Source: a virus
IMG/VR virus record: IMGVR_UViG_3300042505_000659
Coordinates: 1 to 28,430 of that record
Direction: 5' to 3' (one strand)
DNA: 28,430 bases
Of this stretch, positions 7,396-27,888 are shown piece by piece (the stretch's first letter is position 1; every line of letters begins with the position of its first letter). A program made the translations under genes and the position numbers. The notes under the pieces are model-generated. The model was not told the origin of the DNA, ran no database searches, and was given only the letters and a program-made list of their open reading frames with translations.

Positions 7396-8094
7396 TTAAA
7401 TTTTTATATCACCATATTTGTCAAATTCATTATATAATTCCATTTGTCTATCTTTCATTTTGTTTACAACTTTAGTTATATAATGTGTAGGGTGGCCCGT
7501 CATTTCTCTAATAAGTAAATATAATGATTTTTTATTAAAGTTTTCTATATAATTTGCTCTTCTAAATAATTCTAATACTGAATCTGCAATCTGTAAATCT
7601 CTTTTCTTTGGGAAATAGTTTTCTAAATGTTTATCCCAATATTGTAACATCCTGACATTAAAGGTTCTAAATTCATCGTTTCGTTCTTCGTCTCTAAAAT
7701 TATTTTCAGTATCAAACGATTCAGGTAAACCAGACATTATATCTGTATCTTTATATCTTTTGTAATTTGCATTATTATTTAAAATAAGATAATTTCTTGC
7801 AACAATAGTAAAATAAGAAAATGCTTTACCCTTTCCAGCTTTATACATATGAATTTTTTCAATCATAAATGTGACAACCTCTGCCATTACATCTTTTGGG
7901 TCATCATCAAAATAAGTAAATTTCCATTTATTATAAACTATCTCTGCAAGTTTGTCAAATGCAGCTGCAATTCTTTCTTTATATAATTTATCTTTTATAT
8001 ATTGGTCATCGGTTAGATTATATTCGATTATAGCATCTTCCGTATCTTTTGTAAAGTATTGACGATTGGGGCCTCTTTTTTTTCTAATTGGCAT
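7396..8094 (-). CDS. gp55: Late-transcription RNA polymerase sigma factor, T4 gp55-like
   Basis: 232 residues, somewhat longer than T4 gp55 (185). The sigma region 2 core is visible: DDPKDVMAEVVTFMIEKIHMY then AGKGKAFSYFTIVARNYLI, with the FSYFT...ARN pattern of the core-binding and -10 recognition helices. The Lys/Arg-rich N-terminus (MPIRKKRGPN) and a helical C-terminus follow. In T4, gp55 directs host RNA polymerase to late TATAAATA promoters together with gp33 and gp45. Its ATG overlaps the end of the 88-residue gene by 11 nt, and the carbamoyltransferase follows after 2 nt. Assignment rests on region 2 similarity and the phage context. Confidence 0.87.
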   Translation of the reverse strand: MPIRKKRGPNRQYFTKDTEDAIIEYNLTDDQYIKDKLYKERIAAAFDKLAEIVYNKWKFTYFDDDPKDVMAEVVTFMIEKIHMYKAGKGKAFSYFTIVARNYLILNNNANYKRYKDTDIMSGLPESFDTENNFRDEERNDEFRTFNVRMLQYWDKHLENYFPKKRDLQIADSVLELFRRANYIENFNKKSLYLLIREMTGHPTHYITKVVNKMKDRQMELYNEFDKYGDIKI

Positions 8095-14073: not shown

Positions 14074-14699
14074 TATAACATTTTATTTTTCTTTTTAAAT
14101 TTACTTATAAATAAATCGGATAGTTGTAGATGTCCATTTTCACTAAAATGCCAATCATTTAATTCTCCGTTTGTTTCTGTAACTATGGTTTCAAATTTAG
14201 ATAAAAACATACAATCTAATCGTTGGTCGAATGGTGTCCAATGAATAATGTTTTTATTTAAATTGTTTAATAATTTAATCCAACTATTTACTTCATTGCA
14301 ATATCTTATATCATCTCTGTTTAAAAGAATCTCAATAAGAGTAGATTCGGATATTTTTGTTTTGTCAATTTCTTTAGTTGAAAATTTATCATTATTTGGT
14401 AAAATTGTTATCCAATCATTAGAAACTAACCTAAATCTCAACGGAGATGACCATCCAATTATTACTAAATCGTTTTTTTTAATATTTTTTACGTTATCAC
14501 AAAATTTTTGTAATATAGAATAATTGTCCGATGCATTCTCAGCTAGATTAATTAATTCTAAATTTAATTTTTGTGAAATGATTTCACCAAACCCCTTTGG
14601 TGTATAACCTTTCCAATTTACATAAGGATTTGTCCAATTAGATTCAAATGAAAATCCAGCAGAAAAACTATCTCCAAATATATAAAGTTTTTGTGACAT
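14073..14699 (-). CDS. SGNH/GDSL-type hydrolase
   Basis: 208 residues, compact single domain. Block I is IFGDSFSAGF with Ser11 as nucleophile; an Asn-containing block (LAENASDNYS) follows near 52-61; GWSS lies near 82-85; block V is LNDWHFSENGH with Asp182 and His184. It begins directly at the catalytic motif, with no secretion signal, so the substrate is probably cytoplasmic or phage-borne. The 1-nt overlap with the downstream oxygenase suggests coupled expression. Confidence 0.8.
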   Translation of the reverse strand: MSQKLYIFGDSFSAGFSFESNWTNPYVNWKGYTPKGFGEIISQKLNLELINLAENASDNYSILQKFCDNVKNIKKNDLVIIGWSSPLRFRLVSNDWITILPNNDKFSTKEIDKTKISESTLIEILLNRDDIRYCNEVNSWIKLLNNLNKNIIHWTPFDQRLDCMFLSKFETIVTETNGELNDWHFSENGHLQLSDLFISKFKKKNKML

Positions 14700-25873: not shown

Positions 25874-25911
25874 TTCTGTATGTTTGTAGTACACATAAAT
25901 ATCTTTGAATT

Positions 25912-25940
25912 AAAAAACCCCCTACATTTTAAGTAGAGGG
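25912..25940 (-). terminator. Intrinsic terminator after the 36-residue gene
   Basis: Minus-strand stem CCCTCTAC / GTAGGGGG (8 bp, one G-T pair) followed by TTTTTT (25912-25917). It begins 7 nt after the stop of the 36-residue membrane gene at 25948. Confidence 0.85.
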
Positions 25941-25947
25941 TCTCAGT

Positions 25948-26058
25948 TTATAATTTAATAAACCTTTTGAAAAAAGTAATTGCGTAAGGTAAAACTTTCC
26001 ACCCTACTAATACACCTACCCAAAAAGGATAGTGTAAAACGAAATCTAATACTTCCAT
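25948..26058 (-). CDS. 36-residue single-pass membrane protein
   Basis: ATG at 26058: MEVLDFVLHYPFWVGVLVGW, then KVLPYAITFFKRFIKL. Most of the length is hydrophobic, with a basic C-terminal amphipathic end. An intrinsic terminator starts 7 nt after its stop, which supports a real transcription unit ending here. The small size and topology fit a phage membrane peptide of unknown role (for example holin-like or exclusion), but this is inference. Confidence 0.55.
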   Translation of the reverse strand: MEVLDFVLHYPFWVGVLVGWKVLPYAITFFKRFIKL

Positions 26059-26192
26059 ATTTAATTTAGTTTGGTTAAAAAATAAGTCAACTAATTCCGA
26101 TATCGTATAAATAAGTATCACTTAGGTAAAAGAAAAACACTTATTTTCACTTTGTGTGTATCATACATCATGTCAAAATAACTCGTATAGGG

Positions 26193-26361
26193 AAAAAATT
26201 GGACCCCGGTGTTTTCACCTATCCGACCCGGTTTTACAAAACTCGCTTTTCCTCAGCGACATGAAACTGTTTCCATTCTAGCTCCGAAAAAAAATAATAA
26301 GCACAAGAATCCCGCAACGATGTTACTCATTGCGGGGTCGTGAGGATAACCACTCCCTCAC
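26193..26361 (-). ncRNA. Candidate structured noncoding RNA
   Basis: No open frame of note occupies 26059-26403. On the minus strand the segment contains, in order, GTGAGG/CCTCAC (26340-26361), CCCGCAA/TTGCGGG (26311-26336), GAAAC/GTTTC (26263-26273), CGCT/AGCG (26244-26258), GTTTT/AAAAC (26231-26242) and GGTG/CACC (26208-26219), then TTTTTT at 26193-26198. GC content is clearly above the genome average. Six successive stem-loops and a terminal T-run suggest a small structured RNA. The type is not recognised. An upstream gene starts outside this region, at 26610. Confidence 0.45.
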
Positions 26362-26403
26362 TCTTGCTAAAATAAAAAAAATGAAAACATTAGAACTCCA
26401 ACT

Positions 26404-26610
26404 CTAATTCCTTTTACTTATGTAGCGAGTGTACTTTGTATACTGCGACATTAACTCATTTGCTTTAAGTCTTTGTTCACTTACTACTTCTACTCTGCTA
26501 CCTATGTTTAATTCTTTACACCATTCTATAAATTTATTATCACTCATAGTTTGGTTTCTTAATTTCTCTATTGTATTATACTTCTCTATGTCTATACTAT
26601 TACTATTCAT
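26404..26610 (-). CDS. Hypothetical 68-residue protein
   Basis: Helical protein beginning MNSNSIDIEKYNTIEKLRN with a basic end (YTKYTRYISKRN). No motif recognised. It precedes the hairpin-rich segment; upstream 51-nt gap to the next gene carries no clear element. The real start could also be the Met at position 22 (MSDNKFIEW). Confidence 0.5.
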   Translation of the reverse strand: MNSNSIDIEKYNTIEKLRNQTMSDNKFIEWCKELNIGSRVEVVSEQRLKANELMSQYTKYTRYISKRN

Positions 26611-26661
26611 TATATTACTATTGTTTATTTAACTGAATTTATTTTTATTAAGATTGTCCGA

Positions 26662-26892
26662 TTAAGCTTTCGCTTTCGCAGGATGTAGTTCAAAGATTTG
26701 TTTTAAGTATTCATCTTCGTTCTCCATATCTTCTGCACTCATCTCATTGTATCTTTCGAGTAAAGCAATTGCGGACCGGATTTGTCCTAATTCCTCACTC
26801 GCTTTCCATTTAGGTTTTCCATCTTGCAAACCTTTAATCTTTTTCATCAAAACTACTTCATCTTGTTTCAATTTCATTATTGGGTATTCCAT
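26662..26892 (-). CDS. Hypothetical 76-residue helical protein
   Basis: Two predicted helices with the turn KPKWKASEELGQIRSAIALL and an acidic segment EDMENEDEYLKQ. A second Met at residue 6 (MKLKQDEV) is a possible start. Overlaps the zincin gene by 16 nt, so both are probably translated from one mRNA. No family recognised. Confidence 0.6.
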   Translation of the reverse strand: MEYPIMKLKQDEVVLMKKIKGLQDGKPKWKASEELGQIRSAIALLERYNEMSAEDMENEDEYLKQIFELHPAKAKA

Positions 26893-27296
26893 TTGTCTTT
26901 TTGTTTTAATCGTTTTTTAATATGTGACCAACATACTTTTGTATATTTGTCCTCATTCCTTCGTGCTTCCCTTTCATATGGGTTTCTACTATATGTTCCG
27001 GGGTATCTATCGTATTTTGTAAGTATCGGTTGTAATTGATGTGTCCATTCGTGAATACACGTTCCAATCAATTCCCTGATGTCTAAATTGTTATTGTAAT
27101 AAATGTAAATTTCGTTATCGGTCGCATCGTATTGTCCGCAGTCATCATCCCATCCTTTCACTACATACCAAATTGGTTGATATTTTTTTCTATTATTTAC
27201 TCCCATATGTCTGCGACACCATCGTAAACATATATTTGCAATTGAGACAACTTCTTTCCTTCCTAAACTTTCAATCTTTGTGTTTAGATAAATCAT
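26877..27296 (-). CDS. HExxH zinc metallopeptidase-like protein
   Basis: 139 residues. LIGTCIHEWTHQLQP carries HExxH at 82-86 (His82, Glu83, His86), and NPYEREARRNEDKY further on gives a Glu near 108-110 as a likely third ligand, as in gluzincin-type or SprT-like proteins. Phage proteins of this type are thought to act as small peptidases or structural zincins; no catalytic activity is proven. YDATDNEIYIYYN before the motif is the beta-strand edge seen in this fold. A terminator precedes it and its stop overlaps the next gene. Confidence 0.72.
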   Translation of the reverse strand: MIYLNTKIESLGRKEVVSIANICLRWCRRHMGVNNRKKYQPIWYVVKGWDDDCGQYDATDNEIYIYYNNNLDIRELIGTCIHEWTHQLQPILTKYDRYPGTYSRNPYEREARRNEDKYTKVCWSHIKKRLKQKDKWNTQ

Positions 27297-27314
27297 TCTA
27301 TTGTTTTATGTTAT

Positions 27315-27345
27315 AAAAAAAGTGGTACTCTCGGTGTACCACTTT
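27315..27345 (-). terminator. Intrinsic terminator upstream of zincin gene
   Basis: Minus-strand stem AAAGTGGTAC / GTACCACTTT with loop ACCGAGA, then a T-run ending near 27315. It follows the tRNA-like and repeat region and would end the transcript reading through it. Confidence 0.85.
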
Positions 27346-27350
27346 GTAAC

Positions 27351-27420
27351 TATCAAAGTTTTTCTTTGTAAAGTAAATCGGAGAATAACCATTTGTAAAG
27401 TAACCGAGATAACTTTGATA
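27351..27420. repeat. Inverted and direct repeats next to the tRNA-like sequence
   Basis: TATCAAAGTT (27351-27360) and AACTTTGATA (27411-27420) form a perfect 10-nt inverted repeat. Between them TTTGTAAAGTAA occurs twice (27365 and 27392), followed by ATCGGAG and CCGAG. The RNA could form a long stem enclosing a tandem repeat. Confidence 0.6.
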
Positions 27421-27423
27421 TAG

Positions 27424-27522
27424 AGCGGTGAGCTAGAATTGAACTAACTCCTTTAGTCTGGAGGACTATCGTGCTACCCGCGGGCTTTTACGTCCGTGTG
27501 GATACCATTACACCTTCACCGC
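27424..27522 (-). tRNA. tRNA-Gly-like gene with about 25-30 nt extra sequence
   Basis: On the minus strand the acceptor arms GCGGTGA and TCACCGC (7 bp), discriminator T, and the T-arm GTTAG-TTCAATT-CTAGC are fully tRNA-like. A D-arm GTG-TAATGGTATC-CAC is also present. The anticodon stem is best read as TAGT / ACTA around CCTCCAG, giving anticodon TCC (Gly), with discriminator U73 and G1-C72/C2-G71, as expected of glycine tRNA. Between D-arm and anticodon arm lie about 28 unexplained bases, and position 33 is C, not U. The 99-nt length and odd middle make function uncertain: it may be intron-containing, decayed or structurally novel. Confidence 0.55.
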
Positions 27523-27535
27523 TTCATTAGGACGA

Positions 27536-27575
27536 GGAATCTTTACAACCATAAGAATATGGAATCTTTACAACC
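27536..27575. repeat. 15-nt direct repeat upstream of tRNA-like gene
   Basis: GGAATCTTTACAACC occurs at 27536-27550 and again at 27561-27575, period 25 nt, in the gap between the lipoprotein-like gene and the tRNA-like gene. It may be a processing or binding site; no further copy was noticed in the window. Confidence 0.7.
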
Positions 27576-27585
27576 TCGAACTAAA

Positions 27586-27888
27586 TTATTTTACTACTGA
27601 TGTAGTGTCTACTGTTTGTGTCGCAGTTGAATCAACTACCACTGCAGTTGAATCAGTTTTCACTTCAGTTGAAGCTGAACCACAACTCGCTAAACCAATA
27701 ACTAACAATAAAGACATCGCACCTACTTTCGCAGTTGACAAAATAGATGATAATCTTTTCGCATTATATAATGCTTTTGTAGTAAAGAAATCTCTCTTTT
27801 GTTCACTCAAAGTCGTACTCGCTTCGTTTAAGTTGTTTACTAATTCAGTTACTTGATAATTCACTTTTGTACTAATTTTCTTAGCCAT
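27586..27888 (-). CDS. Putative small lipoprotein or membrane-anchored protein
   Basis: 100 residues. Hydrophobic segment AMSLLLVIGLASCGS at 57-71 ends in a lipobox-like LASC, with Cys about residue 69. The tail (residues 70-100) is Ser/Thr/Val/Asp-rich, as in surface-exposed or exclusion lipoproteins. The N-terminal 56 residues before the span are unusually long for a signal peptide, so either a later start is used or it is a membrane protein with a cytoplasmic domain. A promoter lies about 106 nt upstream of the start. Could serve in superinfection exclusion; not shown. Confidence 0.55.
   Translation of the reverse strand: MAKKISTKVNYQVTELVNNLNEASTTLSEQKRDFFTTKALYNAKRLSSILSTAKVGAMSLLLVIGLASCGSASTEVKTDSTAVVVDSTATQTVDTTSVVK

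Follow-up and report, generated by a model that had tools for sequence, protein, structure and literature searches.

Between two small genes of the window (the whole stretch of DNA analysed here, in itself a virus record of 28,430 bases) lies a hairpin-rich noncoding stretch which is real, and which comprises two units on the minus strand, D1 and D2 (Table 1). D1, whose RNA structure is read from its homologues, is most likely the terminator of an upstream SprT-like protease operon. D2 is certainly a conserved noncoding element and is likely, though not proven, to be an RNA; it is unusually conserved and matches no Rfam family. Our best reading, which is tentative, makes D1 a branched intrinsic terminator and D2 a phage small RNA in its own right, belonging to a new family and possessing a terminator of its own. 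The initial annotation had treated 26193-26361 as a single segment; its noncoding character is upheld, and the two units that it actually contains both overrun the ends originally drawn.

Table 1. Positions of the two units, their parts and their neighbours in the window
Feature	Position	Strand	Basis or remark
D1, three-way-junction RNA with U-rich tail	26301..26368	-	folding and compensatory changes in homologues
D1 P1	26367-26362 with 26308-26303	-	
D1 P2	26361-26356 with 26345-26340	-	
D1 P3	26336-26327 with 26320-26311	-	
D2, conserved 87-nt element (alignment columns 1-87)	26184..26270	-	gap-free alignment of 43 rows; divergent copies via covariance model R2
D2 box A (columns 1-16), about GARTTWCRTGTARCT	26255..26270	-	alignment
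D2 variable segment, fixed length of 26 nt	26229..26254	-	may form a small hairpin (window CGCT/AGCG)
D2 box B: core GGTCGGA-9-ATACCGGGG (window ACACCGGGG) and terminal hairpin	26200..26228	-	
T6 run beyond the D2 hairpin	26193..26198	-	T74-T76 invariant in three alignments
D3: conserved TTTTGAYAT, then a short inverted repeat whose arms vary (TGTAT-G-ATACA in the window)	26157..26178	-	
TATTTATA, late-promoter-like motif	26106..26113	-	downstream of D2-D3, ahead of the next gene
68-aa ORF, upstream neighbour	26404..26610	-	no Pfam or PHROG match
Metalloprotease ORF, anchor for the locus collection	26877..27296	-	PHROG 87 metallo-protease, E 3e-5; no Pfam match
36-aa membrane-like ORF, downstream neighbour	25948..26058	-	

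Genomic setting and composition

All open reading frames of at least 139 aa in the window are on the minus strand, and they include genes for gp25- and gp6-type baseplate wedge proteins, which identify a T4-type phage. Six annotated phage records contain a match to the ORF at 7396-8094, which we take to be gp55-like: four are of Flavobacterium phage immuto, one is of Microcystis phage Mel-JY01 and one is of an uncultured phage. The host is presumably a member of the Bacteroidetes. The noncoding segment lies in the gap between the 68-aa and 36-aa ORFs, and an ORF similar to the former lies upstream of the element among the loci listed. Further upstream is the metalloprotease ORF, presumably SprT-like, in which HEWTH is invariant among 19 aligned relatives. 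The segment is probably the boundary between this protease operon and the next operon, which is probably late. In sense orientation, the motif TATTTATA precedes ORFs in four related contigs, and in G001 and G003, two of these contigs, it ranks with the most enriched intergenic 8-mers; a motif like it stands ahead of the baseplate hub gene in phage immuto; by analogy with T4 we read it as a predicted late promoter of the downstream genes.

The elevated GC content noted initially is borne out, 26181-26350 having 44% GC, the highest of 333 windows (170 nt, step 85), against 28-29% in the flanking 200-nt windows (25900-26199, 26400-26599). The folding energy is likewise extreme: 26181-26350 has the lowest plus-strand minimum free energy (MFE) of the 333 windows (-44.8, z -4.96) and, as minus-strand RNA, the second lowest (-49.4, z -1.76), and the overlapping 26266-26435 gives -46.3 (z -3.57) as minus-strand RNA. 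When 26193-26380 was compared with dinucleotide shuffles, 6 of 200 folded as well on the minus strand (-53.0 kcal/mol, z -2.14) and none of 200 on the plus strand (-43.1 kcal/mol, z -3.25). Since the fold exceeds chance on both strands, single-sequence folding of the segment cannot pick the strand. The minus-strand T6 is present at 26198-26193, as described. Likewise, the reported lack of a coding frame agrees with stops in 37/43, 28/43 and 43/43 rows in the three minus-strand frames of D2, and with ATG-initiated ORFs of at least 30 codons reaching the core in only 3 of 45 elements. A coding role for D1-D2 was rejected: ORFs traverse them in some loci, but the frames differ and stops are frequent in every frame. 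The successive inverted repeats of the initial annotation fared less well, for only some are conserved; the hairpin GGTG-AAAA-CACC in the core is confined to the window among 43 aligned rows, and the long pairing of the U-rich flank in the window's MFE structure is absent, by eye, from the relatives read.

Other structured stretches occur in the window. The lowest plus-strand z of the 333 windows (-6.54) belongs to 27201-27370, and 14111-14280, inside ORFs, is also low (-5.34). Minus-strand sequence at 27424-27523 resembles a tRNA-Gly(TCC) gene, seemingly with an insertion of about 26 nt in the D-loop, and scores 21.7 bits, below threshold, with the tRNA-Sec model; similar sequence stands at this position in many of 35 loci. 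ARAGORN did not call this gene in the window, and called tRNA-Gly there in L019, L037, L041, L044 and L046 among 30 loci scanned. At default settings it found no tRNA or tmRNA anywhere in the window, and lowered thresholds gave unconvincing candidates only; in a relative of 238 kb (G001), it predicts a tmRNA (L083, 18753-19123) and 26 tRNAs in two 20-kb stretches (L083 and L084). Between the tRNA-like and protease genes (27316-27420, minus strand) are a long closing stem, repeated TACTTTACAAA, a terminator-like hairpin and GGTTATTCTC, the last also found in several relatives.

Comparison with known families was negative. Rfam 15 gave no match at the gathering threshold in the whole window; at E <=10, all matches in 25900-27600 were below threshold, and at E <=1 the element had no match in any of 9 homologous loci. 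A SAM riboswitch (RF00162), the sole weak match over D1 (26275-26373), was dismissed at 14.6 bits (E 8.8) against a gathering score of 44.4. Among the papers listed from an open-access library, none describes the element in its title or in the first lines of its abstract, which is not proof of absence.

D1, a branched hairpin at the probable end of the protease operon

In D1, P1 joins the U-rich tail to an A-rich 5' strand, P2 forms a side arm, bearing a GNRA loop in some rows, and P3 is a stem of about 10 bp. P3 coincides with a terminator-like scan match (26336-26311) and, at -16.4 kcal/mol, supplies the stable GC-rich hairpin that precedes the U-tract in an intrinsic terminator; the tail in the window, ATTCTTGTGC, passes the terminator scan, though interrupted. 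In combining a hairpin and a U-rich tract at the end of an operon, D1 is like an intrinsic (Rho-independent) terminator, but it is unlike one in having the side arm P2 and in pairing part of its tail within P1.

Folded singly, 39 distinct D1 homologues have a mean z of -5.0 on the minus strand and -4.2 on the plus strand, with mean energies of -26.0 and -22.4 kcal/mol respectively. P1 is absent from the MFE structure in 12 of 41 rows, for some of which the parser picked other hairpins. An alignment of 20 rows from one subtype, built without structure, pairs in 98.2% of cells and contains 19 double-change cells (0/500 shuffles) in 4 pairs (22/500). Fifteen rows aligned by a covariance model have double changes in 17 of 22 pairs and in 60 cells (0/500 shuffles each), although this alignment leans to structure, three of its rows come from phages that the model already contained, and the match of L035 (E 0.83) could be due to chance. 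The initial annotation had guessed at a phage small RNA or cis-regulatory structure and had named covariation across related phages as a check: the stems of D1 type bear this out through compensatory changes, whereas D2 keeps sequence and spacing and offers modest evidence of pairing. If D1 is an operon terminator, as is most likely, it is a more commonplace feature than a small RNA.

Two P2 subtypes do not align with each other, and for this reason MAFFT and RNAalifold returned no structure from mixed D1 types; the mixed alignment was replaced by the one-subtype alignment and the covariance model, which missed most loci of the other subtype. The model (R1), built on another subtype than the window's (P2 GTGAGG/CCTCAC), does not reach the window's D1 at E <=1, nor L003, L007, L014, L024, L025, L029, L030, L033 and L043, each of which has D1 by eye; it finds L078, whose D1 is near that of the window in subtype, at E 0.045. 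The subtypes, TCC..GGATGA and GTGAG..CTCAC, differ between otherwise close phages (L003, L004, L007, L011, L078 and the window), as if exchanged by recombination. A D1-like tail, searched as any of six tail patterns, lies 57-136 nt upstream of the D2 core in 45 of 45 elements (two from one contig), and the D1 copies of L014, L024, L194, L195 and L201 are plain hairpins with T5-T7 tails. TGC follows the tail in 41 of 41 rows, but the pattern that selected these rows itself terminates in TGC; among the divergent copies read, those with a D1-like hairpin have TGC too, by eye.

D2, a conserved single-copy element

Relatives were collected as fifty SprT-like protease loci. D2 lies past the protease gene in 42 of the 50, 37 being recognised by the core pattern and five more by model R2, one of these five cut by a contig end. 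In seven of the eight loci lacking D2, the contig stops no more than 544 nt from the protease match and so could not show it; in the eighth (L050), the downstream DNA is present and D2 is absent from it. A few loci carry identical elements (for example L022 = L036; L023 = L051), and a further pattern added divergent copies, of which those read with enough sequence have a protease ORF upstream. The distance from box A to the core is 26 nt in 33 of 33 contigs in a search that allowed 16-36 nt, and the spacer is 27 nt in 2 of 33 rows of a later divergent alignment (A7). Over 404 distant pairs, identity is 0.865 in the core and 0.766 in box A; for the same pairs it is lower in the spacer (0.452) and in the 76-aa ORF alongside (0.545).

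With model R2 (E <=0.1), each of five IMG/VR records of 67-238 kb contains one D2. In the record to which L050 belongs (G012), its coordinates are 64005-64092, which places it between genes for an AAA ATPase and thymidylate synthase, some 15.6 kb away from the protease gene. This copy has no match to the D1 model; by eye, it is followed by D3 and preceded, at about 250 nt, by a hairpin with a T-run. Its position apart from the protease operon, a single case, is the main reason for considering D2 a separate module. D2 is also present without a D1-model match in L028, L193 and L201, the latter two having a hairpin there by eye. The 238-kb contig contains no second close copy of box A, the core, part of D1, D3 or the late stretch (mismatch limit about 28%). 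Beyond these relatives, two DNA patterns had no match in a collection of bacterial and archaeal species genomes, R2 had none in Microcystis phage Mel-JY01, and an R2 match in Flavobacterium phage immuto 3-5A (20.7 bits, E 0.045) proved on reading to be an ordinary terminator. Another module, TCGATAGTTATAAA, stands between D1 and D2 in L014, L029, L030 and L033, and downstream of D3 in L025, L026, L042 and L043 (cut by the alignment end in L043), with no second close copy in G001.

Pairing within D2 is less securely indicated than its sequence. The spacer of 37 representatives folds better than column shuffles on the minus strand (z -5.3, 0/150) but not on the plus strand (z -0.9, 22/150). Against shuffles of each row the effect is weak, with a mean z of -0.90 and 18 of 30 rows on the minus strand, compared with -0.36 and 15 of 30 on the plus; permuting the two sides of the spacer hairpin gives P 0.06, and 12 divergent copies show no gain over column shuffles (z -0.17, 88/200). 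The terminal hairpin has no double changes in the close set and folds no better than its column-shuffled versions, which we count against the small RNA. With divergent rows it has double changes in 4 of 8 pairs, in 7 cells (2/500) or 12 cells (6/500), its covariation score being within the shuffles (175/500, 311/500), as is the number of pairs with double changes in the divergent set (149/500). Some changes keep pairs on the minus strand only: U.G in 18 rows exchanges with U-A in 9, and G.U in 11 rows with G-C in 13. The hairpin is weak in most copies, its median over 43 rows being -6.0 kcal/mol, whereas two other terminator-like hairpins in the window reach -12.2 and -12.5, and it is frequently separated from the T-run by a few nucleotides; in L191, L194 and L195, CCGG-TCGG..CCGA-GC-CCGG stands immediately 5' of T6. 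The pairing evidence in D2 is weak; an RNA is favoured, with a DNA site as a serious rival. Over 24 distinct rows, the inverted repeat of D3 exceeds column shuffles on the minus strand (z -4.9, 0/400) as well as on the plus (z -7.7, 0/400), and may therefore be DNA or RNA.

Function of D2 and rival readings

On our preferred reading, D1 would end the upstream transcript, and D2 would be a small RNA of about 75-90 nt, composed of a 5' box that is conserved, a spacer constant in length but not in sequence, and, at the 3' side, a hairpin and U-run that end the RNA. The conservation, fixed spacing, single copy and portability of D2 are observed, unlike its transcription, a 3' end at the T-run and action in trans on a target or protein, which we infer. 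D2 would most likely act by binding, either via box A or via the conserved box B loop, since these parts stay constant and the spacer can vary. Inspection by eye of the sequence upstream of D2 showed no conserved promoter, and this too counts against a small RNA. An antisense seed was considered and is not supported: box A is similar to the complement of start regions like ACATGAAA, but no start site recurred among the matches checked. Five phage sequences have 48 to 423 antisense matches of at least 9 nt per sequence, and the best 12 of each included no convincing target, one recurring in 3 of 5 and lying inside a gene. Phage T4 RNAs C and D are encoded near tRNA genes and have no known function; compared by description only, they are like the proposed D2 RNA in being small phage RNAs but differ in phage lineage and host.

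The serious rival to a D2 small RNA is that D2-D3 is a DNA site, either a replication origin or the binding site of a phage regulator, in which the hairpin would be incidental or else a structure of the DNA itself. We consider this somewhat unlikely. It would suit an element that conserves sequence and spacing instead of pairing, that is single-copy and portable, and whose D3 repeat is supported on both strands; against it stand the constant T-run after the D2 hairpin in minus-strand orientation and the G.U changes that keep pairs on that strand only, and the 238-kb contig has no skew switch in 10-kb bins, although such phages need not show one. It is unlikely, too, that D1 and D2 are nothing more than two intrinsic terminators in tandem, insulating the late operon from read-through, with D2 having no further function. 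Both have a hairpin and, after it, a U-rich tract at an operon boundary, with the late-promoter-like motif downstream. However, a terminator needs neither the conserved loop, nor box A upstream, nor a fixed spacer; moreover, the D2 hairpin is weak, and D2 occurs elsewhere without a D1 match, albeit with the upstream hairpin and T-run of G012.

Two further proposals would have D2 act on transcription or replication. Distinctly unlikely, in our estimation, is an autonomous nucleic-acid device formed by D2-D3, present once per genome and moved as a unit, which might for example reprogram RNA polymerase at the late-gene switch or prime replication, and whose class would not have been described before. 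Quite improbable is action in cis on RNA polymerase in the manner of the HK022 put RNA, with D2 as a nascent RNA, about 70 nt in length and bearing two hairpins, altering termination at or beyond the boundary. As outlined in PMC9378689, put RNA is phage-borne, about 70 nt long and folded into two stem-loops, and effects antitermination via the beta' zinc-binding domain, suppressing termination (PMC9378689). Compared with that outline, D2 is of similar size, may have two hairpins at a fixed total length, and lies just ahead of a new gene block; but its first hairpin, at z -5.3 in close relatives, falls to z -0.2 in 12 divergent copies and is unproven, and D2 itself ends in a U-run.

A noncoding element that is single-copy, movable and better conserved than the adjoining gene points to a function that these phages do not easily lose. 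Finding the function of D2 would show how this phage group stages its gene expression or its replication, and D2 provides a new family to look for in metatranscriptomes.
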